A stretch of 58,277 nt of DNA from a virus. Of this stretch, positions 6,268 through 50,156 are shown in pieces. A program made the position numbers and the translations under genes. The stretch covers positions 1 to 58,277 of IMG/VR virus record IMGVR_UViG_3300037493_003821. One strand, 5' to 3'. The notes beneath the pieces are model-generated. The model did not search any database, was not told where the DNA came from, and saw nothing but the letters and a program-made list of their open reading frames with translations. Every line of letters starts with the position of its first letter. The first letter of the stretch is position 1.

Positions 6268-9200
6268 ATGGCACTTGAACTTCTGGACGAATCGCCCGCC
6301 TTGGCCGGAATGGAACTTCTGGATGAATCTTCCGCTATGGGCGGAATGGAGCTTGTTGACGAATCACCCAAGGAATCCATAACCCCGTCACAGGATTACG
6401 GCGGCGCAGGGACAGCAGGCAATGACGGACTTATTGAACCCGGAAACATAAATCTCAACAATCGCCCAAAGGTAAAAAATAAGGACGGGTCAATCAGCAC
6501 GGTTCGCTCAATCGGAATACAGGTTGATGGTAAGGAGTTTCTGATACCAACCGTCAGTGATGATGGGCGGATAATGAGCAACGAGGAAGCGGTTAATCAA
6601 TTCCGAACAACGAAAAAGCATTTAGGCGCATTCAAGACATCTGCCGATGCGGATAATTACGCTCGCAAGCTACATGATAGCCAAGCCGCGCAATACGTAG
6701 ATAGCGCAGGGACAGCAAACGATCCGTATCCTGTTACAGATTACGAGGCTCTACATCCGAATGTTCAGAAGTATCTAAAGGACAATCCAACGGTTGCTGG
6801 CATGGCGATGGGCGGAGGCGAAAATGGAACGGATGCGAATGAACCCCGCACCATTATTGTGAATCCTCACAATAAATATATGTCCGATCCGGTAAAGCGC
6901 GACGGACTGATAAAGATAGAGGCCGTAAGGCATCTTATGGGCGAGTCAGGATACAAGGCCAACTTCGCTGTCACGCCAAAGCAAAAGGAGTGGCAAAAGA
7001 CCCTTGGCGCATACGCCAATAATGATGAGGCGTTCAAGCACTCGATCATATCAAGATTAGTGGCGCATGATGATGTCCCTGATGCCACGCCAGAACAGAT
7101 CGCAGAGGCAAGAAGATTTGAGCTAGAGTTAAAAAAGAGAAAGCAGTCACCCGCACCAGCAACCGATCCATATCCCGCACCTCCTGCATGGATGGCTACG
7201 CCCGATCTGCCGGAAGCACCGCCAGAAGTCGCGCAGCAGGCACGGTATGCGCATGAATTGATGGGGCATGGCATAGACTCAATTACGCTCTCGTCAAAGC
7301 TGGATTGGAGTGGCGAGCTATCGCCGGAACAGAAGTGGACGGAACAGAACAGGCGCAGTGCCGAGGCTATGATTGAGCGGGATGAACTCAAGGCAAAGAT
7401 CAAAACCCCAAGCCGATTATCGCAGGAACCCTACAACCCCACATCTGCGCTCACGCCGGAGTATCGCGCTACGGCACAGGCAGAGGATCGTGTGAAGCAG
7501 TTGGATGCACAGATTGCCTCTCTCGAAGAATCCACAAAAAGCCAGACTGTCCTAGACTACGAGAAACGCGCCCGCGACAAGGAGAAGGAGCAGATGGATT
7601 TAGAGCAAATGCGAGAGCGCATTAAAAAAGAGATTTATGGCGAAGGCCCGAATCCTTTATGGGGAGGAATACTTTCACTCGGCGGAGCTTTAGCGGGTCA
7701 AGTGGGTGGCGCGGCTGCGTTCGTTACTAGAAACCATGAACAGGGATCGCTCGCCTACAATATGTCGAGTGTTGAGAATGAGATTAAACAGTATGTAGGC
7801 GTCAACGACAGCACAGCCAGCAGGATCGCCATGACTATCGGCCAAACGCTCGGATTGATTGTTGGGCCAACAGGGAAAAGCGGACTTGCCAGAAAAGCAT
7901 TTGGATTATCCACGGTGGCGAGGGCTGGTGTTCACGCCTACGGTTCTGCCCTTGCATCCGGTGCAGACGAAGGACAGGCGCAGAAATCAATGGTCATGTC
8001 GGTTGTGGAGATGGCTGCATTCCTCGGACTTGCACATAAGGGGAAAGGGGTGATCGAGGGTATTGTCGGCAAGCTATCCAAAGGTGCATCTCCGGCTGCG
8101 CTGGCAGCAGAGGAAATGCTGAAATCGGGTGTAGCGAATATGGGTGCAAGCGGTGCATTGCGATTCGCGCATGGCGAAGGATTCGCGCCTACGCTGGAAT
8201 CAACTGTAACGGATTGGACGTTTGCAGCGCATGGAGGGATGAACGCATTCGGTCAACGTCGGGCAGGTATGGCGGCTGTTGCGAAAGCTGACGCTATGCG
8301 GGGAACGCTATTTCCAGAGGGAGCTACCGAAGTTAAAACAGGTTACGATGCCGTTGTTCATACCGCTACAACCAGCGAATTGTTTTCAGCTTTAGTTAAT
8401 AGACAAAAAGAACTTGCACAAAAGCCAACCCGCACAAAAGCAGAGGAAAAAGAACTGAAAGAGCTTGATGCGGTTGATGGAGATCACCTTTCAATCAAGA
8501 AGATACTTGATGCCAAAGCGAAAGAGGCAGGGATACAGCGCGTCAGGGATACGGACAGAACGGAGTTTGAGCAGGCGATAAAAGAGAAAATCGCAGAACT
8601 GAAATCCCGCGAACTTGACGGACAGGAAGAAAGGCTATTGGAGACGCTGGAATCACAGCCAATAGAAGCTATCGCTACGATGTATGGCAAGAGGTTGTCG
8701 GAACCCGTATCCAGCCAAGCAGGGATGCAGCAGCAGCCGATCAACGTGAATGTTGTGCCGGAACCCGCACCTACTGCTAAAAAACCAGCAGCACCAGCCG
8801 CGACAGCCGCAAATCCGCTCCATGAGGCGGGAGCAGACAAGAACACCACGGCTATCAATGTTACCACGAAAACAGGAGATGCTGGAAATAGCAGAAGCAA
8901 TTCCATAGGTTTTTCATCCGAAGCGGAAGCAGCAAAATACATAGCAGAGGAACGCGCCAAGAATCCAGATGCAGTTATCACGGCATCAGGAGTGGATCAG
9001 TATGGGTTGAGCAAAGCGGAAGTAGCTAAAGCGGTAGATCGACTGAACGCTGAACCCGCGCCAACTGCTAAGAAACCAGCAGAACAAGACATAGACGCGA
9101 ACCGAGTTCCGCTGGCGTATAATGACAGGAGAGCATTACGCGATAGGGCGCAAGCAGCCGTAGATGCTTTGCCGCGAATGCAGCGAGTTCATGCTCAAAA

Positions 9201-12200
9201 GAGATTGGATTCGGCGGAACAAAATCATCGAGAACTACGCAGGGAATTGGAAGATGCAAAAACCGTAGGACAGAAACTTTCCGCAGAAATGGAGCTTGTG
9301 GAGCAAGAGAACAGGATGCGCAGAATTGCGGGAGAGCCAGAACTAGAAACTTCTCGCCCTGTAACCGAAGCAGACCAGAAAGCCAGTAGGGACTATCTTG
9401 CGAAGCGAATTACCGAAGTTGAAGCTAAGATTAAGGCCGGAGAACCGCTGACTAAGCAGGACAGGGGTGATTGGGTGACTGGCGGTAGAAAGGCATCGGA
9501 ATTACCCAAAGAATCAGAACCCGTAGCTACCCCAACTGCTGAAAAACCAGCAGAACCAGCACCCGAAAACCTTCCGCCAAAAGTTGAAACCGCAATCCGA
9601 GAAGGCACAGCAACCCCGGATCAGCTTCAAATCGCAACCGAGCAACCCTTGTTATTCGACACCCCAAAGCAGAAGCGGGATGCGTTTGTGCTGCGCGATG
9701 CTTTGCGGCAGAAGATTGACGAGGTTGAAGCTGGCGATTACAGCGATAGTCAGGCGAGGAAGCACGCGAGACTCACGGAAATGTTGGGTAAAGTGGAAAA
9801 GCAGATCGCGGATAATGCTAAGTCAGCGGATAAGCCGGAACCCGTGGTTGAGCCAGCACCCGTTGCGAAGGATGAGCCAGCGCGGGATGCTAGTAAGATG
9901 GAGGAAGCGGTTGATCCCGCTGCCGAAGTTATGGGTTCTGTTTTTGAAACTACCGTAAGGACGCATGAGGGAGAGGCGAAAAAGATGTTTGCCGTTCAGC
10001 GCGGCGTAAATCGAGGTATGGGCGATAGGGTTTTCAATACACGGGAGCAGGCAGAGGCGTTTTCCAAAGAGCAAGAAGCCGATATAAAGCGTGCCGCCGA
10101 CAAGAAGTTGGCTATCGAAAAAGAAGCAGCCGATAAAGCGAAGGCAGAGGCGGAAAGACCTAGAACTGATGTAGAGATTTACACCGATGGCATGACGCCG
10201 ATGCAGCGCGGAAAGATTTCTGCAACGCTGTCCGAATACGGAGGAAAGCGGGCTGGCGGAAAAATGTATGACGGGACAAGGGCGCAAGTAACCAAGCAGT
10301 TATTAGAGGCTGGCTATGTCCCGAAATCGGTTGAGGTTTCTGCTGTTAAGGAGTTGTCGGGTAATCGCATGAACAAGATGGATCAGCGCGAGCAGGATGC
10401 GTATGAAGCCAAGAGGAAAAAGGCAGGAACTAAAACCGAGTATAGGCTTGAAAAGGGCGATGGAGATAGCGTTTTTACCGTCACGAAAGCAGAGCATGAT
10501 TATGCGGTTCACCTAAAAAGCAAGGAACCAACTGCTGAAAAACCAGCAGAACCCGCAAAGGCAGAACCCGCACCCGTCCTACGCAAAGGCGAAAATCAGG
10601 GTGACTTGCTCAAGGGAAGATCGGATGACGCTTTCAACCTAGTGGGCGAAAAGCAGGCTGCACCTAAACCAGCGGAGCCGCCCGGCCCGTCAAAAGAGAA
10701 AATGGCTGATGCCGCGATGCGGGCATACGGCAGCTACGAGAGAGCCATTGAATCGCTCAATGTGCAGATGGAAGGCAAAATATCGGCAGAAGCGAAACAA
10801 CGGGTCAAGATAACCATCAACGAGCTAGAGCGCAGACGCGATAACGAATTGCGTGCCGAAATGGAGAAGGAGCAGATGGACGCTGTTCGTGAACACGAAG
10901 ATAGCGGCGGCGATGAACTGCTGACTGTCCTCAAGAGGCTAGGCGGGTTGCCGTTGATCGGGAAGGAGACGGTTCTTAGTGGCGAGTTCAAACGGGTATT
11001 TGAGATGGAGCGCGGGAAGCATCTGCGCATGAAGTGGACGAGCAAGCTGCAAGGCAAGTCGCTGGATGCCATTCGTCAGGAGCTAGAGGGGCATGGGTTT
11101 TACTTTGAAACGCCAGTAGAGATGCTGGATGCAATCGGTAGAGCGATGCGCGGTGAACTGATTGTCGGTAGCGAGAAGCCGATGGAGGGTGGGCGGGAGG
11201 ACTTGTTCAACCGTCAATCCATATCCGAAAAAGCTCCCGAAAACTCGATGCACGTTAATGCGGTGCAGAAGGCAACCGATGCGCTACGAGCAAGGTTCAA
11301 GGGTGCTGCTGAGACTACGGTTGTAGCCGATGGAGAGCAGTTGCCGGAAGCCGTGAAAGCCAAGGCGAGAGCACAGGGCGTTGCTCTGAATCGCATTGGC
11401 GGGGCTGTGCACGACGGCAAGGTGTATCTGAACGCTGCCGGACTTAGCTCTCCTGCGCGTGCTGCCGAAGTATTCTTTCACGAACAAGCGGGTCACGTTG
11501 GCGTGGATGCGCTGTTGGACGGGTTATCGCCCAAGTCGTCGTCGCGGCTGATGGATGCGCTGAGAAGGGAGTTTCCCGAAGAATCGAAGTATGCGGAGAA
11601 ATGGTATGAGCCAGATGAGCATTTGTCGGAATCCTTGGCGCGTATCATGGAGAAGTTCGGCCCTAAATCCGATGCCACCCCAAGGGAGCAATCGCGCTAT
11701 CGCAGGGTAGTAGATTTCATTCGCACGATTCTCGCCAAATCCGGCATCAAGAATTGGAGCAAGAACGACATCGAAGCTCTGTTGCGCCGTGGCATTGATA
11801 AGGTTCGCAGGGGTGACGGGAAGGCGGATACTGGGGATACGAGACTTAGCATCAACGATGAACCTGGTGGTCGTTCTGAGCGGAAATCCAAGTGGGATGC
11901 TTATAAGAAGGACACAGCGGGCATGAGTCGCGCAGAGATTGATCGTTTTATTGAGTCAAAGCGAAAGGCAGAAGAAGAAAAGGATGATATGTTTGCCGCT
12001 GCGCCAAAAGCGGAACCGATCCTCATGTCGAGCAAGAACGCTTTCCAAGCGGAAGAAGCGCGGAAGCGCGGCGAATCCCCGATTGAATCGGATTTCTACC
12101 GCTCAAATCCAGAGGTAGCCGAAGCAGCGCGGGTAGCGATGGACAAGAACCCCGAAGCCGTGGATTCGGTGATTAGGCATTTGCTAGAGGAAGGACGGGA

Positions 12201-15200
12201 CACCCGCAAAATCTCTATACAGGAAGAAGCGATGTTGGTTCATCGTGGGTTTGATCTGAAACGTCAGATCATGTCGGCTGAACGGATTCTTGAAAACGAA
12301 AACAGCACACCCGCGCAAAAAGCAATGGCGCAGGATAACATTACAGATGCACAGACGAAACTGATTGAGCTTGCAAATGCCATGCACGCATCCGGCGAGG
12401 TATGGGGCGCGTTCGGTTCATTCCGTCAGCGGATATTCCAGGATGACTTTTCGCCAGCTTCAATGGCGAGAACGCTGGAAAAGGCGAAGAACGATAAATT
12501 GACCGATGCAGAAATTGCAGAAATCGAGATTGAAGCCAAAAACATTGAAAGGCTACGCGCCGAAAAGGAAAAGGCGGAAGAAGCTGCCGTGGATATTCAG
12601 CGCGACGATGCTGCACAGGATGCCTTCGACAAAGCTGCACGGTATCATCCGAAGGTGCTGGAATATGCGGAGGGTATCGTTTCCAAGTGGGAAGCGGAAG
12701 CGATCAAAGCGCGGAAGGATTTACGCGAGGCTATGGGCATGGCATCGGCCAACCCGCTTTCCCTCAAGGTTGCTGCTGCTTTGTTCAAGATTGCACGGGC
12801 TAAGATTGCTCGCGGATCGTTAAACGCTGCTGAGTTCACAACGGAAATGGTTGAAGAGTTTGGCGACTCGATAAAAACGGCAATCCAACCTGCGTGGAAT
12901 CTGGCGATGAAGGCTATCGGCAAGCTGGACGCTAACAAGGAGCGCAAGAAAACGCCCAAGCAGAAGAAAGCCGAAAAGACCGCAATGGACGAAGCGGAAT
13001 CCATCGAGGACGGGATCAAGGCTGTGGCGAAAGACCCGAAGGCGTTGAATGACGGATTTGATTCATACGTGAAGAAGCTGGCGAATGAGTATGTCCGTAT
13101 GGGCGAAACCACTGTTGCCGGGGTAATCGCCAAGCTGCACAAGTTCTTTGACCCGATGATGCCGGATTTGACCGACAATGCGTTGAAAGATGCTTGGACG
13201 GATTACGGCAAGGGCAAAGAGGCGACAACCGATCCAACGAAAATGCTGCAAAGCCAGCTACGCTACGAGGCGTTGTTGGAGCGCAAGATTTCAGAACTTG
13301 AAAAGCTGAAAAGCCCTGCGGCTACTGCCAGCAAGCGCGTGAAACAGACTGAGCGAGCCGGGCGATTGCTAAAGGAGATCGCGGAACTCAAGAAGAAGCT
13401 GCCGCCCGATGAGGGCAATGCCGCTGGACGGCTGCAATCCTCGCTGGATGCGATGGAGACTCGCGCCCGCAATCGCATTGCGGAACTGCGCTACGAGATT
13501 GCCAAGGGTGAACGCACGCTGAAACAAAAAGGACTGCCGCCGACAAGCCCTAAACTGGAAGCACTTCGCGCAGAGCTAGAGGAAGTTAAGGCGGAACATT
13601 TGGAAAGATTCGGCAAGCGTCAGATGACGGAAGAACAGAAGCTAAAGGCTGCAATCCGTTCGGCTGAGAACTCGGAGAAAAAGGCAGTCGCGGAACTAGT
13701 CAACGCGAGGAAAGGTATCTTCGCGCAACCAGCCACAAAAGGCGTCAGTCGGTTCATAGAGGTTGAGGCGATACGCGCACGGGCGGAAGCTGCGCGGGCT
13801 GAGACGAAGGCGTTGAAGGACATGGATACGGCGATACAGGAGGCGAAGAAAGTAGCTGCGCTGGAATCGCAAATCGAGAAGCTGGAATCCACCATTGCCG
13901 AAGGTAAGTTTGCGCCGAAAGAGCAAGAATCCGATCCTACCGTGGAGACGGAAGCTGTCACACAGTTACAAGCCAAGCGGGATGCGCTCGCTGCTGAGTT
14001 GGCTGAGAAGCGCAAGGCTGCGCGTCCTGTGCCGGATGCAGAGTTACGCGAGTTGAAGCGGCTGGAAAGCGAACTGGCATCACTCATGGTCGGTAGGGCG
14101 AAACCGCAGAAGAAGATGACGGTGGACACGGAACAACAGGCGTTTGCACGGGAGCAGCTTGCGGCAAAACGCGCTGAATTGGCTGAGATTCGGGCGAACG
14201 ATGACAACCTAAAGATTTCCAACAGAAAAGCGGCAATCCTTCGCCAGATGGCAGACCTAGCGGATCGCACGGCTCGCGGAGATTTTGCCCCTCGCAAGAA
14301 AAAGCCCGCACTCGATATATCCAAAGACCCGGACGCGATGAGGCTCTCGGTGAAGCTGGCAAAGCAGAAAGCGGATTTCGCAAAGCGCGTAGAGGAATAC
14401 AGGCTGGCGCATCTGACACCCGTGCAGCGCGGGTTGATCAATCTCGGCAAGACTTGGGATGCTACCCGTAATCTTTTCCTCTCATTCGATTTAAGCGCAT
14501 TTCTGCAAACGGCAGCAGCGGCAGCAGCGCACCCGTTGGAAGCAGGAAAGGCACTCGGCAAAGGGGCTAAGGCGTTTGCCTTCACCCTGTTCTCGGATCG
14601 TTACGCGCATGAGCTTCAAGAGCGGGCACGGCAGGAACCGCTATACAAGAACGGCACGTTCAAGAAGATGGGGCTGGAAATCAGCGAGACGATGGGTGAG
14701 GCGCGTGAGGAAAACATGGTGAACGTGTTGGAGCGATTAGCTGATGTTCAGACGCGCTGGAAGGATATGCCGGAAGCCGTGAAAAAGCTGATCGGGATGC
14801 GCGGTGTCAGGAATATAATCAGCGGGCCTATGGATATGTTGAAGTATGCTGGTTACAGAAGCGGCATCGGGCGCGGACTCAAGGGGAGCAACGTGGCGTT
14901 TGGAGCTATCGCGGGGCATATGCGCATTGTCATGGCGAAATCACTTCTTCGCCGTTGGTTTCAAGACGGCAACGCGACAGACGCACAGCTTAAACTTTTA
15001 GGCAAGCTGGCGAACACATTCACGGGCAAGGGCGGAATCAAAAACGGCGGTGCGCTGAATCGGCTTTTCTTTGCGCCTAACTACTACCTCTCGATTATGA
15101 AGGGGCTTTTTGGATTGGATATGTTTATTCACGCTGCTCCTGCTTTCGAGGGAAAAGCTATGGCAGCTATGGCAGAGGAATACGTGCGAGCAATCGCTAC

Positions 15201-15738
15201 TATCGTTACCGTTGGCAGTATCGCGTATTTGCTTGGAGATAGGGACAAGCAGGACATTAATCCGCTCAGTAGCAACTTTGGAAAACTTGTTCTAAAAAGC
15301 GGCACAACCATAGATTTATCAATGGGGCGCGGGGCTTACGTCACACAGCTTGCAAGATACCTTTATGGGATGACGAAAGAGAACGGCAAGTATGTAAAAC
15401 GCGATAGGAATACAGGGCTTGCGCTTTTCCTCGCTGGCAGGTTCTCGCGTGAAATCAAAATGGCTACCGCGATTCTGGACGGGAAATCATACGACAAGAA
15501 ACTGGAAGGGCCGTTGGATTACTTCAAAGAGTCGTCGGTTCCGCTCGCATGGCGCGATCTGGATAAGGTGCTGGAAAAAGAGGGCATCACCCGTGGCGCA
15601 TTCCTGCAAATGCTCAACCTTCTCGGCATCACTTCGCGCATCCCCGATGAGAAAAAAAGCAGCGGAAGTTCAGTAAAAAGCATGGAGAGTCAAATCAAGC
15701 GCGAGATAAGAGATGACGTAGGTAAAATCGGTCTTTGA
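6268..15738 (+). CDS. Giant polyvalent internal virion protein, 3,156 aa (LPD38-type C-terminus)
   Basis: A giant mosaic protein. The N-terminus has three copies of a short (A/E)LLDES-like motif. Residues of about 50-150 contain the phage-typical block [11 protein letters not shown]...[18 protein letters not shown] Gly/Ala-rich hydrophobic region follows (about 465-670). The middle has four linkers with PTAKKPAE or [14 protein letters not shown] at residues 1738-1743 resembles HExxGH metallopeptidase sites, with E1784 or E1788 as possible third zinc ligand. Residues of about 2200-2720 form long Lys/Glu coiled coils. The last 380 residues resemble the large polyvalent protein-associated domain LPD38 ([12 protein letters not shown]...[20 protein letters not shown]). 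Such proteins are ejected with the DNA. It ends the late operon. Confidence 0.8.
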
Positions 15739-36038: not shown

Positions 36039-36917
36039 ATGCCGTCACTTGCTGAAACGCAGGCGAAGGACAGCATCGGGCTTCCCCGATTCGAGGAACA
36101 GCGATGCGGGGCAATGGTGAATCATGTCAGAAAGAATCGGCTGCTGGAATCGGAACCGCCCGACTGCACGGGATGCGGTATCGTGATAGCTGGTGGAGGG
36201 AAGTATCTGTCATGGAGTTGGGTGTTATGCCGGAGACTACGGGAATTGGGGTGCGAGTTGCCGATACAGGTGTGGCACATAGGCGAGAAGGAGATGCCAG
36301 CATGGGCCGCAAAAAGTTTTGCAGAGATGGGGGTAGAAACGGTCAATGTGTTTCACGTTTTAAAGAAGCATCCGGTTCGGCAGATGAGCGGGTGGGTGTT
36401 GAAGAATTACGCTGTCACGCATAGCCCTTGGCGTCATGTCATGTTCATAGATGCTGACTGCTTTCCTGTGGTAAAGCCGGAAACGATATTCAAGTTGTGC
36501 GAGGGCAAGACGTTATTCTTCAATGATGTGAAGCCGTGTCATCCGAGTCGCTGGGGATACACCTATTGCGGGTTAGCTCCGGAAATCGAGTGGGAAACCG
36601 GGCAATACGTGGTGGACAAGGTTGAAGGGTGGATGGGGTTGCGGTGGACGGGCTGGTTGAACGAGCATACGGATTGCTGGTTTAACATGGTGCATGGCGA
36701 CAAAGGAACTTTCGAGTTGGGGTTTCGGATGAGCGGGGTTCCGTTGCTAATGGGGGATGCGCCGAAGTGGGGTGGATTCGGCATCGCGCATAGCTACAAA
36801 GGGGTTGCTGTTTTCGAGCATTGCATGGCTACGAAGCGTGGCGAGTTTCCGATGTTCCCGTGGTTGAAGAATCTGTTTAAGGAATGGGATGCGGTGAGTC
36901 TAGGGAAGCAGAAATAG
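36039..36917 (+). CDS. GT-A-type glycosyltransferase, MNN1-like, 292 aa
   Basis: GIVIAGGGKYLSWSWVLCRRLRELGCELPIQVWH matches the nucleotide-sugar-binding start of MNN1/GT71-like transferases, and FIDADCFPV contains the metal-binding DxD motif (D138-D140). It likely adds a sugar to a surface or virion glycan. The first 40 residues look unrelated, so a later start, M26, is possible. Its stop abuts the stop of the convergent terminase gene. Confidence 0.75.
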   Translation: MPSLAETQAKDSIGLPRFEEQRCGAMVNHVRKNRLLESEPPDCTGCGIVIAGGGKYLSWSWVLCRRLRELGCELPIQVWHIGEKEMPAWAAKSFAEMGVETVNVFHVLKKHPVRQMSGWVLKNYAVTHSPWRHVMFIDADCFPVVKPETIFKLCEGKTLFFNDVKPCHPSRWGYTYCGLAPEIEWETGQYVVDKVEGWMGLRWTGWLNEHTDCWFNMVHGDKGTFELGFRMSGVPLLMGDAPKWGGFGIAHSYKGVAVFEHCMATKRGEFPMFPWLKNLFKEWDAVSLGKQK

Positions 36918-39973: not shown

Positions 39974-40794
39974 AAACTATCTGGACGCACAACCATTTCA
40001 ACCTTGGCGACAATCTGCTGTTCCTGCATCTGCTTCGCTCGATTGCAAAGTCGCATCCCGATCATTGGTTCGTCCACTTCTGCGCAGGTTGTCATGCAGA
40101 TGCGCTGCGAGACATGACACGCGACATTCCTAACATCCTCATTGATACCTTCGACATGAGAAGCCTATGGGATAACGTGAAGGACGTTTCGATTGATACG
40201 TGGAAGAACGCAGGCGCGGGAAACGGCAAGTTGGGGTTTTGGGAGCGCAGTCAATTCCGTTGGGACTTCTCCAACTTCTACCTTGAGCATCACGCATGGA
40301 CGGCAAGACGGATGGGCTTTAAGTCGCCATTCGTGATCAAGGAGCATCTGCTTTTTGATTATCCGGGGCTGGAGAATAAAGGCGATTACGTGTTCGATTT
40401 CCTAATCATCAATTCGGAGCCGTGCAGCGGTCAATTCGGCCCCATGAAGCAGCACGGAAGCGGCTATCTGGATGAACTGATACTCGACTTGGCGAAAAGG
40501 CATCGCGTGATTACGACAAACAAAGTCGGCAATCTGCCATGCACCCGCGCACCATTTGTCGCTGATCTGAGCATCACGGAGATCGGTCAAATGTCCTCGC
40601 GCTGCAAACATCATCTTATGGTCGCATCCGGCCCTATGTGGCCCACCATCAACACGCACAACAACCACGACAGAAGCGGCAGGATGCGAATCGCGCTACT
40701 GGATAACGGGGAACAACTGAATCTGCCAGAAATCCATCAATGCGCGACAGTGGATGAAGCGCGACAACTCTTATGCAGGGAAGGACTGTTATGA
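39970..40794 (+). CDS. Glycosyltransferase-like (GT-B/GT9-like) protein, 274 aa
   Basis: The opening NHFNLGDNLLFLHLLRSIAKSHPDHWFVHF resembles the N-terminal domain of GT9-type heptosyltransferases (GDNL..P.lr.LK...P). The C-terminal part has DLSITEIGQMSSRCKHHLMVASGPMWPT, as in the donor-site domain where a Ser/Gly loop follows a helix. It may transfer a sugar; other nucleotide-binding functions are possible. Confidence 0.55.
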   Translation: MKTIWTHNHFNLGDNLLFLHLLRSIAKSHPDHWFVHFCAGCHADALRDMTRDIPNILIDTFDMRSLWDNVKDVSIDTWKNAGAGNGKLGFWERSQFRWDFSNFYLEHHAWTARRMGFKSPFVIKEHLLFDYPGLENKGDYVFDFLIINSEPCSGQFGPMKQHGSGYLDELILDLAKRHRVITTNKVGNLPCTRAPFVADLSITEIGQMSSRCKHHLMVASGPMWPTINTHNNHDRSGRMRIALLDNGEQLNLPEIHQCATVDEARQLLCREGLL

Positions 40795-41318
40795 CATACA
40801 AGGAATCTTTGACAAATCAGATGAACTCGTTCGCCCGCGATCCGCTTGCCCGCTTTGTCGGCTACGGACTGCTCAACGGCAAGGGCGGCAATGGAACGAT
40901 GAAGGAAATCACGAATGACAAAATCTACGAAGTCACGGTTGCCGAGAACCTGATGATGGGCATGGCAATGGGACTGGCGTTAAAGGGACTTCGGCCAATG
41001 GTGATACTTGAGCGATTCGACTTCATCGGCAACTGCTTCGATGCGCTGGTGAACCACATTGATAAAGCGGCAATCATCAGCCGTGGTCAATGGACTCCCG
41101 GAGTAATCGTTCGCGTGGTTGTCGGGAATAGCCGGAAGCCGCTATTCACTGGCGCAACTCATACACAGGATTTTACGGAAGCGTTTCGCAAGATACTTCG
41201 GATGCCCGTGTATCGGGTGACAACGCCTGACGAGGTTGCCGCTGGATACGAGGCAGCAATCGCAGATCAGAAGCAGAATCGCAGCACGATGATTGTAGAA
41301 CTGAAAGACAACCTATGA
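40791..41318 (+). CDS. Thiamine-diphosphate enzyme, pyrimidine-binding (E1-beta/transketolase-like) half, 175 aa
   Basis: EVTVAENLMMGMAMGLALKGLRPMVILERFDFIGNCFDALVN matches the pyrimidine-binding domain of E1-beta subunits and transketolases (family form ...AEq.mvg.A.GlA..G.rP......DF...a.D.i.N); E52 is the cofactor-activating Glu. The usual C-terminal domain of E1-beta is missing. Start at 40791 overlaps the upstream stop. With the protein at 42352 it would form one split enzyme, with a zinc dehydrogenase gene between the halves. Confidence 0.78.
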   Translation: MTYKESLTNQMNSFARDPLARFVGYGLLNGKGGNGTMKEITNDKIYEVTVAENLMMGMAMGLALKGLRPMVILERFDFIGNCFDALVNHIDKAAIISRGQWTPGVIVRVVVGNSRKPLFTGATHTQDFTEAFRKILRMPVYRVTTPDEVAAGYEAAIADQKQNRSTMIVELKDNL

Positions 41319-42355
41319 AGGCGGCAATCCTCACACAACTGAACTCGCCCTTAGAGATATGGGACATCGAACACGCATCAACTTCATTCGGCAAAACCTG
41401 CGCCACTGGACAGGTGCGCGTGGAAATGCTGATGAGCGGCATCTGCGGTAGCCAGCTACAAGAGATTGCAGGCAACAAGGGCAACGCTGGATTTATGCCG
41501 CACCTTTTAGGTCATGAGGGATGCGGGATAATCCGCGAAGTCGGGGCTGGCGTGAATGTGCAGATGCTTGGGAAGAAGGTTGTCTGCCACTGGCGCAAAG
41601 GCGAAGGCAGCGATGCCTATCTTACTGCCCGTTACGAGACGAGCGGCGGCAAAACCCTTGGAGGCGGTCACGTAACCACGCTCTGCGAATCAGCCGTGGT
41701 CAGCCGCAACCGTGTTACCGTTGTTGACGACGATGTTCCGATGGAGCTATGCGCGTTGCTCGGATGCGGACTCAGCACGGCACTAGGAACCGTGGAGCAG
41801 GAAGCCAAGTTGAAGTTTGGCGAGAGCATCCTGATCATCGGGTGCGGTGGTGTGGGGATGAATCTTATACAGGCAGCTAAACTATCTTGCGCATACCCGA
41901 TTGTCGCCTGTGACGTTAATGAGGATAAAAGGTCAGCGGCAATGTATAATCAAGCCACCCATTATATCAACATAAGCGAACCATTTGAGCATCCAGTGGA
42001 GAAGTATGACGTAATCGTGGATACTACGGGCAACATCGAAGCGATTGAAGGCGCGATACAGCGGCTCGCCAGTGGCGGCAGATTTATCATGGTCGGGCAA
42101 CCGAAGCCGGGGCAGTCCTATCGCGTGTTGTCTGCTCTCGATATGTTCTTTGGCGAGGGAAAGACGATTATCGCTACGCAGGGTGGCGGGTTTCGCCCTC
42201 ATCTTGATATTCCGCGCTACGTGAATCTGTGGCGTGCGGGGTTGCTGGATTTGACGGGAACGATTTCGCACAAGTTGCCGCTGGAAAAGATTAACGATGG
42301 AATAGACCTAGTTCGCAACGGATTGGCTGGCCGAGTAATGATTTCACTGAAATGA
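41315..42355 (+). CDS. Zinc-dependent medium-chain alcohol dehydrogenase, 346 aa
   Basis: SGICGSQ (C44) and LGHEG (H67, E68) are catalytic-zinc residues, LLGCGLSTALG (C151) adds the third ligand, and IIGCGGVGMNLIQAAK (about 175-190) is the NAD(P)-binding Rossmann loop. The structural-zinc cysteine lobe is absent at residues 90-115. It reduces or oxidises an unknown substrate, perhaps the product of the thiamine enzyme whose genes flank it with four-base overlaps. Sorbitol- or ribulose-phosphate-type dehydrogenases are the nearest idea. Confidence 0.85.
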   Translation: MKAAILTQLNSPLEIWDIEHASTSFGKTCATGQVRVEMLMSGICGSQLQEIAGNKGNAGFMPHLLGHEGCGIIREVGAGVNVQMLGKKVVCHWRKGEGSDAYLTARYETSGGKTLGGGHVTTLCESAVVSRNRVTVVDDDVPMELCALLGCGLSTALGTVEQEAKLKFGESILIIGCGGVGMNLIQAAKLSCAYPIVACDVNEDKRSAAMYNQATHYINISEPFEHPVEKYDVIVDTTGNIEAIEGAIQRLASGGRFIMVGQPKPGQSYRVLSALDMFFGEGKTIIATQGGGFRPHLDIPRYVNLWRAGLLDLTGTISHKLPLEKINDGIDLVRNGLAGRVMISLK

Positions 42356-42984
42356 ACCTGCATACCAAAGAATCACTGATCGCCTTTGAAAACCGAATCA
42401 AGGGCTTATGGGAAGAAGGAGAACTGCCTTCCTTGTTGCACTTATGCGGCGGCAACGAGGACGAGCTGATCGAGATTTTCAAGCGCATCAATCACGACGA
42501 TTGGGTGTTCACCAGCCACCGAGCGCATTATCACTGTCTCCTAAAAGGGATGAGCGAGGAACAGCTTGAAAAGGAGATACGCGAGGATCGCTCCATGTTC
42601 GTGTTCAGCAAAGAACTGAAAATCTATCAGTCGGCAATCCTTGGCGGCACTTGCGGCATCGCGGCTGGCGTTGCTGCCGGAATCAAGCGGGCAGGCGGGA
42701 ATGAACGGGTGTGGTGCTTCCTCGGTGATGGTGCATACGAGAACGGGCATTTGTTTGAGGCCGCGCTATACGTTACAGGACATGAACTGCCATGCACGTT
42801 CATCATTGAGAACAATAACAGACAGGTGGATACCAGCATCAAGGACAGGCGCGGGGATAACTCGCTTTCCTTCTCCATGAACGCGCCATGTGTCGAGGAA
42901 TACTACTACGATCCAACGTATCCTCATGCGGGGAGCGGCTGTAAATCCATCATCACTTTCAATCGAACCACGCCTTTACTATGA
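42352..42984 (+). CDS. Thiamine-diphosphate enzyme, diphosphate-binding (E1-alpha-like) half, 210 aa
   Basis: LHLCGGNEDELIEIFKRINHDDWVFTSHRAHYHCLLKG matches the E1-alpha opening (substrate gate and active-site histidine region). LGDGAYENG then CTFIIENNN gives the diphosphate/metal motif GDG-x26-NN (G125 to N154). The C-terminal ordering loop (VDTSIKDRRGDNS) is present, but the protein is about 140 residues shorter than E1-alpha and appears minimal. It overlaps both neighbours by four bases. Confidence 0.82.
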   Translation: MNLHTKESLIAFENRIKGLWEEGELPSLLHLCGGNEDELIEIFKRINHDDWVFTSHRAHYHCLLKGMSEEQLEKEIREDRSMFVFSKELKIYQSAILGGTCGIAAGVAAGIKRAGGNERVWCFLGDGAYENGHLFEAALYVTGHELPCTFIIENNNRQVDTSIKDRRGDNSLSFSMNAPCVEEYYYDPTYPHAGSGCKSIITFNRTTPLL

Positions 42985-43880
42985 AAACGCTCATCGGAAT
43001 AGTCTCATACGGTAACTTGCCCTTCCTGCAACTCGCTATTCGCGGCATCAAGGAAACACTGACAAAGGATGCCGATATTCTAGTGGTGATAGCCGATCCG
43101 AAGGACTTCAATATGGAGCATTGGTTGTCGGCTGGCATGATCAACTACATCAAAGATACCGAGAACATCGGGTTTGCTGGAAGTATCAACGACATCTTTG
43201 AGTATGCGTGGGTGAAGGGCGATTACGACAACGTGATCATAATGGGGAATGACGTTATCCCGTATCCCGGCGCACTCGATGCCATGATCAACTGCGCGGA
43301 AACAACCGATTGGGAATGGATATGCGCGTCACAGTTTGACTCGAAATCCCTTGTCGCTCGTTACCCCGAAGCCGCGCAATACTTCAAAGGCGAAACGCTT
43401 GAGTTCACAGACTTCGACGCAAGACCGTGGGAACTGCACAAGGAAATCCATGCACCGAACATTGAGCCGGATGCGCTGAAAGACGTTCGCAATCTCGCGC
43501 TATTCAAGCGTAGTGTATTCGACAAGACGGGATATACCGATGTGAACTTCTGGCCGAATGGTTATTTTGAGGATAACGATGCCGCGAGACGGGCAAACCT
43601 ATGCGGGGTGAAGGCGTGCGGACTCAGCGAGGCTGCATACTTTCACTTTTGGAGTCGCACTATCCATCAGGGCAGCGAGAGGAATCACGGCAAGTTCTTT
43701 GCCCGTAACAGTGGTCACTATGTCCATAAATGGGGCGGGCCTGTTGGCGGGGAGCGGTATTCACAGCCCTACGATGGTCGGGGATTCCTGTTGTCGCCTG
43801 ACATATTCCTTGATCCAGCGATGCGGATTGCAGACCGCAACGACGAGAGGACGATTATCCGGTATTGGTCAACGCTATGA
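42981..43880 (+). CDS. Family 2-like glycosyltransferase, 299 aa
   Basis: A GT-A fold: IGIVSYGNLPFLQLAIRGIKETL, then NIGFAGSINDIFEYAW and IIMGNDVIPYPGAL, in which N90-D91 lies at the metal-binding site of the rhamnosyltransferase-like GT2 group. NFWPNGYFEDNDAARRANLCG is the acceptor-side ED motif. It overlaps the E1-alpha-like gene before and the next glycosyltransferase after. Confidence 0.8.
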   Translation: MKTLIGIVSYGNLPFLQLAIRGIKETLTKDADILVVIADPKDFNMEHWLSAGMINYIKDTENIGFAGSINDIFEYAWVKGDYDNVIIMGNDVIPYPGALDAMINCAETTDWEWICASQFDSKSLVARYPEAAQYFKGETLEFTDFDARPWELHKEIHAPNIEPDALKDVRNLALFKRSVFDKTGYTDVNFWPNGYFEDNDAARRANLCGVKACGLSEAAYFHFWSRTIHQGSERNHGKFFARNSGHYVHKWGGPVGGERYSQPYDGRGFLLSPDIFLDPAMRIADRNDERTIIRYWSTL

Positions 43881-44500
43881 TACCGAAAATCATTCATCAG
43901 ATTTGGATCGGGGATAAGATGATTCCTTCTAGGGAATTGAAGTGGTCGTCTGATATGGAGGAAATGAATCGCGGGTGGAAGCATCGGCTACACGGCAACG
44001 AGCTATTACAGCGATACAAGGACGATCCGTTCGTGAGATACATGGTCGCAAAGGGTGAGCGCATTGCCTTCATCACGGATCGCCTGCGCGTGCTACTGCT
44101 GCAAGAGGAAGGCGGAATCTACGTGGATGTGGACAGCCAGCCGATACGCCCATTTGACTCGATTGACGTATGGAATCGGTTCGACTTTGTAGCTGGATTG
44201 CGCTCGCCATTCCGAAAAGACGTAGCCCTTCATCGCGCTGTCCCGATTGTGGACAACACGTTAATGGCATCTGTTCCGAACGGCAGAATGATCGGGATTA
44301 TCGCTGCACTCTGGACACCCGCGCAAATTACTTCCGCCAACCACGCGATTAACGGTCATAGGACAGGGCTTGCAATTATCGAGAACTGCGATTACACGAC
44401 TTGTTTGCTTAACCATCGTTACATATATTGTGAGCAGAAATATCCAGAAACCTTGATATTACACGACACTCATAACCTTGGAACTTGGACTAAGAACTGA
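43877..44500 (+). CDS. GT32-type glycosyltransferase, 207 aa
   Basis: IPKIIHQIWIG at the N-terminus, FITDRLRVLLLQEEGGIYVDVDSQPIRPFD in the middle with the DVD metal site at residues 84-86, and NTLMASVPNGRM are all hallmarks of the GT32 (OCH1/capsular mannosyltransferase) group. ATG 43877 overlaps the previous stop. It is the last sugar gene before the portal block. Confidence 0.85.
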   Translation: MIPKIIHQIWIGDKMIPSRELKWSSDMEEMNRGWKHRLHGNELLQRYKDDPFVRYMVAKGERIAFITDRLRVLLLQEEGGIYVDVDSQPIRPFDSIDVWNRFDFVAGLRSPFRKDVALHRAVPIVDNTLMASVPNGRMIGIIAALWTPAQITSANHAINGHRTGLAIIENCDYTTCLLNHRYIYCEQKYPETLILHDTHNLGTWTKN

Positions 44501-48289: not shown

Positions 48290-49417
48290 ATGGAAACTAC
48301 AACCGAAACAACGACACCAGCAACCACACCCGTAATCCCTGCCGCACCACCAGCGGAGGAAAACAAAGGCCCGCTTACGCCGGAACAGGTGGATGCCGTA
48401 GTTGGTAATCTGCTCAAGCCAAAGGTCACAAACCTGCCGGAAATCCAGAAGCAAAAACCAAAGCAGGAAAAAGCTAAAGAGCCAGAAACTAAGGTCGAGG
48501 GTGATGCTGACAAAAACTTTGCCGCGCTCCGTAAGAAAGCAGAAGAAGCAGAGAAGCGTGCAACTGAACGCGAAGCAGAATTGACAAAGGTGCGCGAGGA
48601 ATACAACACCTTCAAAAAGAATCCCGTGCCGAAGGAATACGAGGAAAAGCTGACAGCAGCAGAAAAGCGGGCGCAGGAGTTGCAGGCGAATCTTCGCATC
48701 GCTGACCTTGCTCGCGATCCAGAGTTCCAAGGCAAATACAATAAGCCCATTGAGGCATCCGTGCGCGTGATGAGCAATCTTTTCGTAGAAGCCGGGGCTG
48801 ATGCCGCAGAGATTAAAACTGCAATCGCCACATGGAACGAAGAACAGTTTTCGGATTGGGCAGATATGCTGCCTGCATCTAAGCGTCTCCGATTCAATGC
48901 TGCATACCAAAAGGCAATCGAACTCGATATGCAGCGGAATCAGGAGTTGGCGGATTCCGAAACCACTTGGATCAATCTCCAAAAGCAGCGGCAAACAGAT
49001 GCAGAAAATAATCAGAAGCAGTATCTTGCATCGTTAAAATCTGAACGTAATTCCGTGTTTGCCGAAATTGAAGCAACACACAAAGAACTTCTAGCTGACC
49101 CTGACATCCGTAGGCAAACGGAGGAAATGCTGGATCGCGCAATCGGCGCAGACGGCAAAGGACTATCAACCCGTGATATGCTTTCAAGTCTCGCGCATAC
49201 GCACACCCTAGCGCATCACTTCAAACGTGTAGAAGGAGAACGCGCAAAACTTGCAGAGGAAAATACAGCACTCAAAGCGAAGTTGGAGGAACGTGATTCT
49301 TTCATCAAAGGCGTCAATGGTAGCATCCCTGTTCCAAGCGGCTCTACACCTTCGCACAGCGCGGCTGATTTAGATTCGATTGTCGGGAAACTTCTGCGCC
49401 CAACTGTTAGGGTTTAG
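48290..49417 (+). CDS. Putative scaffolding protein, 375 aa
   Basis: After a Thr/Pro-rich start the protein is a long Lys/Glu coiled coil (RKKAEEAEKRATEREAELTKVREEY), a helical middle and a C-terminal helix-plus-linker (DSIVGKLLRPTVRV), which repeats words of the N-terminal DAVVGNLLKPKV. Coiled-coil, highly charged proteins directly before the capsid gene are typically scaffolds. Its end overlaps the convergent endonuclease gene by 11 bases. Confidence 0.65.
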   Translation: METTTETTTPATTPVIPAAPPAEENKGPLTPEQVDAVVGNLLKPKVTNLPEIQKQKPKQEKAKEPETKVEGDADKNFAALRKKAEEAEKRATEREAELTKVREEYNTFKKNPVPKEYEEKLTAAEKRAQELQANLRIADLARDPEFQGKYNKPIEASVRVMSNLFVEAGADAAEIKTAIATWNEEQFSDWADMLPASKRLRFNAAYQKAIELDMQRNQELADSETTWINLQKQRQTDAENNQKQYLASLKSERNSVFAEIEATHKELLADPDIRRQTEEMLDRAIGADGKGLSTRDMLSSLAHTHTLAHHFKRVEGERAKLAEENTALKAKLEERDSFIKGVNGSIPVPSGSTPSHSAADLDSIVGKLLRPTVRV

Positions 49418-50156
49418 CTGCAAGGCGTTCGCGCCTGATAGCCCATGCCGCCCGCATTTTTGCGCGTATCTCAGGCGTTGTTCTCCATAGCTTCTTTTTA
49501 GCAATAGTCTCAGGAGAGTGCTTCCTGCCCATTCCGGCTGCGCTTAATTTAGCCCGATGATCGTCGGTTAATGGTTTGCATTTTCGTCCTTTCATGGCCG
49601 CGCTAAGATTCTTCCTATGATCCTCGGTAAAGACCCTTGCTTTCATTTTCTCAATGCTGTCCTGCCTGTGTTTCTTACCCTTCCTTGCCTTGCTCATTTT
49701 AGCTCTCACTTCGTCGGATGCTTTCTTCCCACGGCGGAACTCGCTCATTTTCTTTCGGGACTCTTTCGTGTGTTTTCTTGCCCTCATTTTCACTAAAGTT
49801 TCCTCGCTTCTTTTTACTCCAAGTTGCGAAAAAGCCGTTGGAGAAATGTTTAATCCAAAGTTCCTGTCGGCTGATTTAAGGAAATCAATATAATACTGCT
49901 CTCTTTCAATGCACTTATTTGGTTCACACAATTCCACAATAGAAAAAACGAAAGCATCTTCCCCGTATTTATTCCAAGCGTTCTGCAATAGTGCGCTATG
50001 ATGATTTCCATGCCTTAACTGATGACGATGCATATTCCATCTATGAAGAAAGCATCTCGATGCACTTCCGATGTAATTCCTTAAGGTGATAGTGCAATGG
50101 ATTCGATAAACTCCAGTGAGGAACCGTTCAATTTTAGATGGTGGTAACATATACAA
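49407..50156 (-). CDS. GIY-YIG homing endonuclease with NUMOD repeats, 249 aa
   Basis: TGVYRI then RNYIGSA gives the GIY-YIG core, and HRHQLRHGNHHSALLQNAWNKYGEDAFVFSIVE carries the catalytic Arg/His and Glu region. The C-terminal half consists of repeats such as HTKESRKKMSEFRRGKK, the NUMOD3-like DNA-binding modules. It is inserted on the opposite strand between scaffold and capsid genes and is the only gene against the local direction, as expected for a mobile freestanding endonuclease. No intron is evident. Confidence 0.88.
   Translation of the reverse strand: MYMLPPSKIERFLTGVYRIHCTITLRNYIGSASRCFLHRWNMHRHQLRHGNHHSALLQNAWNKYGEDAFVFSIVELCEPNKCIEREQYYIDFLKSADRNFGLNISPTAFSQLGVKRSEETLVKMRARKHTKESRKKMSEFRRGKKASDEVRAKMSKARKGKKHRQDSIEKMKARVFTEDHRKNLSAAMKGRKCKPLTDDHRAKLSAAGMGRKHSPETIAKKKLWRTTPEIRAKMRAAWAIRRERLAAKP

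Follow-up and report, generated by a model that had tools for sequence, protein, structure and literature searches.

A minimal split thiamine-diphosphate enzyme with an exchangeable oxidoreductase partner in a phage gene string: a possible two-step sugar module

What might a phage make with two short proteins that resemble the halves of a thiamine-diphosphate (ThDP) enzyme, a dehydrogenase encoded between them, and glycosyltransferase-like genes directly downstream? The question is raised by an IMG/VR virus record (IMGVR_UViG_3300037493_003821), of which the whole analysed stretch of 58,277 bases is called the window below. Matches to a DnaB-like helicase and to a tail-fibre protein confirm that the window is phage DNA. 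The cassette encodes a pyrimidine-domain protein (Pyr), a zinc-dependent dehydrogenase of the medium-chain dehydrogenase/reductase (MDR) type and a diphosphate-domain protein (PP). It lies in a coupled gene string, in which each start codon sits on the previous stop codon in a four-base ATGA overlap (at 40791, 41315, 42352, 42981 and 43877); the fifth overlap arises with the better ATG start of the GT32-like gene at 43877. The gene order, sizes, four-base overlaps and Glu52 and GDG...NN motifs described in an earlier reading of this DNA (the original prediction) were all found where it had placed them. The observations that follow suggest, with a probability of roughly 55%, that the cassette represents one form of a mobile sugar module of two steps, which feeds glycosyltransferases.

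Sequence and modelling support the view that one minimal E1-type ThDP enzyme is divided between Pyr and PP, because fused homologues exist, the catalytic residues are invariant and the modelled fold is transketolase-like. Both halves match the protein family PHROG 34187 (405 amino acids (aa), annotated as of unknown function), PP over positions 7-197 and Pyr over positions 237-403, because the cyanophages S-SM2 and P-TIM68 encode them as one protein. In these cyanophages this "transketolase central region-containing protein" likewise adjoins a PHROG 2640 dehydrogenase. However, S-SM2 and P-TIM68 combine a fused PP-Pyr with heptose-type genes, whereas the window has the split order Pyr-dehydrogenase-PP and no heptose-type genes. 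The neighbourhood search proposed in the original prediction found the Pyr-dehydrogenase-PP arrangement again in related phages, and the halves fused into a single protein of about 400 aa in about 90 loci besides those two cyanophages. Hundreds of viral contigs carry relatives, and the halves are thus not peculiar to the window phage. Each scan was confined to its best 80 loci, and the counts given here describe those branches rather than a census; many of the sequences are closely related, and trees were built from representatives at 88% identity. Partner families were defined by profiles built for the analysis, and genes were called by longest open reading frame (ORF).

Glu52 of Pyr, which sits in an AENL motif, and His124 are each present in 159 of 159 distinct sequences. 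In PP, Asp126 of the GDG motif (residues 125-127) is present in 175 of 175, as is the pair Pro191-His192, and the second Asn of the motif (Asn155) is kept in 163 of 175, with Asp in the other 12. The original prediction had staked its case on conservation of Glu52 and GDG among homologues, and both the glutamate and the GDG aspartate are without exception. An AlphaFold2 model of a fused viral homologue, made from an alignment of 48 sequences and standing as one chain for the two chains of the window, reaches pLDDT 89.8 and pTM 0.92, and its best PDB matches are transketolases (E=3.6e-13).

By sequence, the closest known proteins are the alpha and beta subunits of 2-oxoacid dehydrogenase E1, whose catalytic residues are kept. 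The corresponding families, PF00676 and PF02779, score above cut-off for the window halves and far more strongly than transketolase families, while no NCBIfam E1 equivalog cut-off is reached by either half. The halves are truncated on both sides, however: the E1 subunits of solved structure that they match have 324-400 aa each, compared with 175 and 210 aa in the window, which bears out the earlier remark on their shortness. Pyr lacks the C-terminal domain of E1-beta, PF02779 being the sole match within its 175 aa. PP is shorter than E1-alpha beyond the second ThDP motif and retains the final strand and the invariant Pro-His, which, compared by eye, may be the counterpart of the YRYHGH region of E1-alpha. 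The split transketolase (PDB 6yak/6yaj) is a two-chain enzyme like that of the window, but E1 families are the better match to the window proteins, in which the third (C-terminal) domain of transketolases is absent. No E2 or lipoyl acyltransferase gene could be recognised in the neighbourhoods inspected; the whole genome was not searched with an E2 model.

The oxidoreductase between the two halves is exchangeable. In a 735-kb uncultured phage (LR756501; locus L004) and in many other contigs, a radical SAM/SPASM gene, absent from the window, replaces the dehydrogenase between Pyr and PP. Among 102 distinct well-covered loci, gathered with ThDP-side queries only, extending at least 2.5 kb to each side and scored for a partner within four genes, 58 have only the dehydrogenase and 44 only the radical SAM protein; none has both and none has neither. 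When loci fetched through the oxidoreductases themselves are included, the distinct dehydrogenase sequences accompany fused minimal E1 (92), split minimal E1 (12), full-length E1 (7), minimal transketolase (4) or no ThDP gene (2), and the distinct radical SAM sequences accompany split minimal E1 (84), minimal transketolase (5), fused minimal E1 (2) or no ThDP gene (2). Some of the four oxidoreductases without a ThDP gene lie on short contigs or at contig ends.

The tree of concatenated PP and Pyr sequences (52 representatives) requires at least three changes of partner, one of which took place inside an unchanged Pyr-X-PP arrangement; the approximately unbiased test rejects a grouping of all radical SAM carriers in one clade (p-AU 0.0002). 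The window and three other phages with the order Pyr-dehydrogenase-PP cluster with phages of the order Pyr-radical SAM-PP (support 100/98). L200, L201 and L214, initially taken for loci with split minimal E1, actually carry full-length E1 alpha and beta and were excluded from this tree. The strict pairing and the repeated swaps argue strongly that a specific chemistry of two steps is under selection.

Some loci hold further radical SAM genes. In one split-type locus, a different, unrelated radical SAM protein of 263 aa is encoded directly before the dehydrogenase (L083:3237-4028); it was not counted as a partner family. Two contigs from metagenome-assembled genomes (MAGs) have a PP-Pyr pair with two radical SAM genes instead of one (L102:7547-10935; L104:8696-10880).

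The ThDP slot is replaceable as well. The same dehydrogenase adjoins full-length E1-alpha and E1-beta in seven loci (L200, L201, L206, L212, L213, L214 and L219), where a heptose-kinase-like gene comes next in those read closely. A short transketolase-type pair replaces the E1-type pair in L202, L251, L276 and six others, four of these pairs lying beside the dehydrogenase and five beside the radical SAM gene. In the examples analysed, the pairs have 213-257 and 151-160 aa; the PP protein best matches split transketolase 6yak and the Pyr protein best matches DXS. The phage pairs at L276:3203-4293, L251:6141-7390 and L202:6838-8054 are minimal and lack the third domain, and such pairs are possibly another undescribed compact ThDP enzyme. 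As both the ThDP slot and the oxidoreductase have been swapped, the thing conserved is the two steps and not the particular proteins. Minimal size does not by itself define the new catalytic class that had been suggested, since full-length E1 alpha and beta and minimal split transketolases fill the same slot elsewhere.

The active-site residues of the two partners are conserved. The catalytic zinc ligands of the dehydrogenase are present in 115 (C44), 116 (H67) and 117 (C151) of 117 sequences, the remainder being gaps. The glycines of its cofactor motif (G176, G178 and G181) are present in all 117, and the acidic residue after this motif (D200 in 112, Glu in five) points to a probable preference for NAD. 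In the radical SAM protein, the CxxxCxxC cysteines (C41, C45 and C48) are kept in 86-87 of 87 sequences and those of the auxiliary cluster (C280, C298, C339 and C343) in 83-84; the SPASM family PF13186 is matched at 7.5e-8 in L004 and at only 0.02 in L035. The best PDB match of its model is DesII (2e-16), followed by SuiB, BlsE, SkfB, PqqE and viperin, with BtrN at rank 24. DesII dehydrogenates TDP-quinovose (PMC11434129) and BtrN oxidises 2-deoxy-scyllo-inosamine (PMC9012708). Both are only distant relatives of the radical SAM partner, but both can oxidise ring hydroxyls, so that enzymes of either partner type are able to form ketones on sugar-like rings. By this analogy, alcohol oxidation is plausibly the reaction common to the dehydrogenase and the radical SAM protein. 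The dehydrogenase need not reduce the product of the ThDP enzyme, as the original prediction had it; the repeated swaps with an unrelated radical SAM/SPASM protein point instead to oxidation of a sugar ahead of the ThDP step. One radical SAM gene (L016:5897-7987, a 696-aa frame) has an apparent intein inside its CxxxCxxC motif, the insert starting with CLVAGTMIATPDGD and ending with VVHNC.

The neighbouring genes, which in fused-type loci are of the ADP-heptose type, suggest which sugar is involved. Of 62 well-covered loci with the fused enzyme and the dehydrogenase, 61 have an HldE kinase-like gene, 48 an HldD-like epimerase, 35 an HldE-nucleotidyltransferase-like gene and 21 a short-chain dehydrogenase/reductase. 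NCBIfam concurs on the heptose-type genes, mostly under its curated cut-offs, and the exact sugar may therefore differ. A related dehydrogenase (38-45% identical) is found in seven sampled cyanobacterial genomes; five of these seven loci also encode a split transketolase or an E1 alpha/beta fusion, and the loci that were scanned proved to contain GmhA-, GmhB- and HldE-like genes. Given the genes for a heptose kinase, an epimerase and a nucleotidyltransferase in fused-type relatives, a heptose-related sugar is probable. Split radical SAM loci have almost no heptose-type genes; 34 of 46 carry a homologue of the upstream protein that belongs to no known family, and 34 of 46 a GT2-TPR protein. A "phosphoheptose isomerase" annotated in P-TIM68 (L003:15474-15812, 112 aa) matches the EcbF-BcbF capsule phosphatase family and was rejected as evidence of heptose. 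The phage sugar pathway of the original prediction thus gains a strong link to sugar biosynthesis in relatives (HldE kinase, HldE nucleotidyltransferase and HldD); its substrate and its virion or host target are presumed.

The following order of events can be proposed. The oxidoreductase, which is the zinc dehydrogenase in the window and the radical SAM/SPASM protein in relatives, would turn a hydroxyl of a sugar precursor into a ketone. Pyr and PP would assemble into one minimal ThDP enzyme, as the fused homologues, the invariant residues and the fold model suggest. This enzyme would then move a two-carbon unit, making or possibly breaking a C-C bond at the new ketone. The two-carbon chemistry is suggested by the reactions of E1 and transketolase, and by the E1-like pairs AviB1/AviB2 (avilamycin) and Pau11/Pau12 (paulomycin), for which attachment of C2 branches to ketosugars has been proposed (PMC4425429, PMC4753412). 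As described there, these pairs resemble that of the window in being E1 alpha/beta-like ThDP proteins of sugar pathways; Pau11/Pau12 are, however, of full length (325 and 345 aa) and belong to antibiotic clusters, whereas the window halves are minimal and belong to a phage. The parts of these two papers that were available describe no alternation of dehydrogenase and radical SAM for the AviB and Pau systems. Finally, the sugar would be passed to the glycosyltransferase-like proteins of the same gene string and put on a glycan of the virion or of the host surface. The window phage would draw the activated sugar from its host. Heptose is absent from most described cyanobacterial lipopolysaccharides (LPS; PMC4515613), which could explain why cyanophages carry the heptose set and the window phage might use a host precursor.

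A wider reading is more tentative: a mobile, mainly viral pathway, both steps of which are replaceable by unrelated enzymes, might form a ketosugar by means of a zinc or a radical SAM dehydrogenase, and then, with a ThDP enzyme of the E1 type (minimal or full-length) or the transketolase type, a branched or higher-carbon heptose-derived sugar that decorates the particles or the infected cell.

Several points weigh against a two-step sugar module. An MDR enzyme can work in either direction, and the radical SAM protein could catalyse something besides oxidation, since its sequence and fold narrow it down no further than to the SPASM/MoaA-like enzymes. The ThDP arrangement of the window proteins is taken from the model of a fused homologue. 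Recognised heptose-pathway genes are missing from the window and nearly so from the split radical SAM loci, so that it is chiefly the fused branch that carries the heptose link. Family assignments of the flanking transferases are weak, and the 274-aa protein upstream belongs to no known family when its 23 homologues are compared with Pfam and its profile with the PDB. Every substrate, the direction of both steps and the target are deductions.

In the main rival reading, a dedicated minimal transketolase would provide heptose synthesis with a seven-carbon ketose phosphate (sedoheptulose 7-phosphate, for instance), and the oxidoreductase would serve another step, perhaps by generating the ketose donor or completing the sugar. 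The heptose kinase, epimerase and nucleotidyltransferase neighbours would fit this, as would the transketolase-type pairs in the same slot, the cyanobacterial genomes with a split transketolase beside GmhA- and HldE-like genes, and the likeness of the fused model to transketolase. However, the common form is E1-type by sequence, full-length E1 alpha and beta fill the slot too, heptose genes are missing from the window and the radical SAM loci, and the constant pairing with an oxidoreductase is left unexplained; on balance this rival appears unlikely. Enzymes of the E1 and MDR families often occur in the metabolism of acetoin and alcohols, and an acoA-type gene is present in an Acinetobacter record. 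The cassette might accordingly serve the infected host's metabolism of small molecules or of central carbon (acting on an acetoin- or diol-type compound or an aldehyde), its proximity to glycosyltransferases being incidental. This is quite improbable: no E2 or lipoyl gene was seen among the neighbours examined, sugar-nucleotide and transferase neighbours are consistent in two independent branches, and replacement by radical SAM fits poorly. That the halves are relics or non-catalytic, as their truncation relative to E1 subunits could suggest, is hardly credible when the ThDP and dehydrogenase catalytic residues are essentially invariant over hundreds of divergent sequences and the halves are retained together, split and fused alike.

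The putative two-step module is widespread in viruses. A viral scan with the PP alignment found relatives encoded in 560 IMG/VR stretches. At least five cellular loci were confirmed in a scan of 84,980 species genomes, on a Prochlorococcus single-cell contig, two deltaproteobacterial MAGs, a Parcubacteria MAG and a Nanoarchaeota MAG, some of which could be phage-derived or mis-binned. Nor did the Prochlorococcus family and the Parcubacteria class, covered with 389 genomes, add any minimal-form locus. On this thin cellular sampling, the minimal form appears to be chiefly viral. A fold search of viral structures gave no match below E=0.001, and literature searches found no paper on this pairing of the ThDP enzyme with an oxidoreductase. 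The "putative transketolase" of Campylobacter phage CP21 (L352:25189-25767) which a fold hit had brought up, was considered as a cultured relative and rejected: it is PP-like but very divergent, with SDA replacing GDG and a score of 9 bits against the PP profile, and its neighbour CP21_043 is a DUF285 protein. The CP21 genome carries several radical SAM genes.

The features of the gene string are collected in the table. The gene before the cassette had been called GT9-like; this was rejected, as no meaningful Pfam match was found in 23 aligned homologues and the profile of the protein matched no glycosyltransferase in the PDB. As for the two transferases proposed downstream, the GT32-like assignment stands above the family cut-off, and the GT2-like one is weak, falling below it.

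Table. Genes of the coupled string in the window (positions in the 58,277-base window)
Feature	Coordinates	Strand	Basis and remarks
Upstream protein, 274 aa	39970..40794	+	Homologues precede the module in about 70 loci
Pyr half of putative minimal ThDP enzyme, 175 aa, catalytic Glu52	40791..41318	+	PF02779 (Transket_pyr) 9e-10; PHROG 34187 3e-35
Zinc-dependent MDR dehydrogenase, 346 aa, probably NAD-linked	41315..42355	+	PF08240 (ADH_N) 7e-12; PF00107 (ADH_zinc_N) 3e-13; PHROG 2640 2e-69; zinc ligands C44, H67, C151
PP half of putative minimal ThDP enzyme, 210 aa	42352..42984	+	PF00676 (E1_dh) 5e-18; PHROG 34187 2e-61; GDG 125-127, Asn155
GT2-like glycosyltransferase, 299 aa, weak	42981..43880	+	PF00535 3e-4, below cut-off; PHROG galactosyl transferase 2e-10
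GT32-like glycosyltransferase, DXD-type sugar-binding region	43877..44500	+	PF04488 (Gly_transf_sug) 5e-6, above cut-off; ATGA overlap

Elsewhere in the window, a separate protein with a Mannosyl_trans3 match (PF11051, 1e-19; 36039-36917) is a further likely glycosyltransferase of the phage. An ORF on the minus strand (49407-50156) resembles, by eye, a GIY-YIG homing endonuclease, and one reading frame of 3,156 aa spans 6268-15738. Close relatives of the window phage have extra ORFs between Pyr, the dehydrogenase, PP and the GT2-like gene (L007:6051-6485 and 7525-8004; L011:7750-8004; L005:8630-9439), of which one looks DNA-methyltransferase-like and one HNH-endonuclease-like by eye.

Large LPS-type clusters have been known in marine cyanophages since 2010, and the study of that year left undecided whether they are functional or filler DNA (PMC3037559). 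The cluster of S-SM2 holds the fused form with heptose-type genes; the portion of that study available does not single out the pair of ThDP enzyme and oxidoreductase. The pairing makes the function of the cyanophage clusters testable in the cultured phages S-SM2 and P-TIM68. The commonest ThDP component of the pathway would be an unusually small E1-type enzyme, and a very compact enzyme of this type is thereby on offer for biocatalysis. The module is also a natural example of radical and hydride-transfer enzymes that seem to have displaced each other several times. Together, these features indicate an uncharacterised but widespread viral pathway to an unusual sugar.

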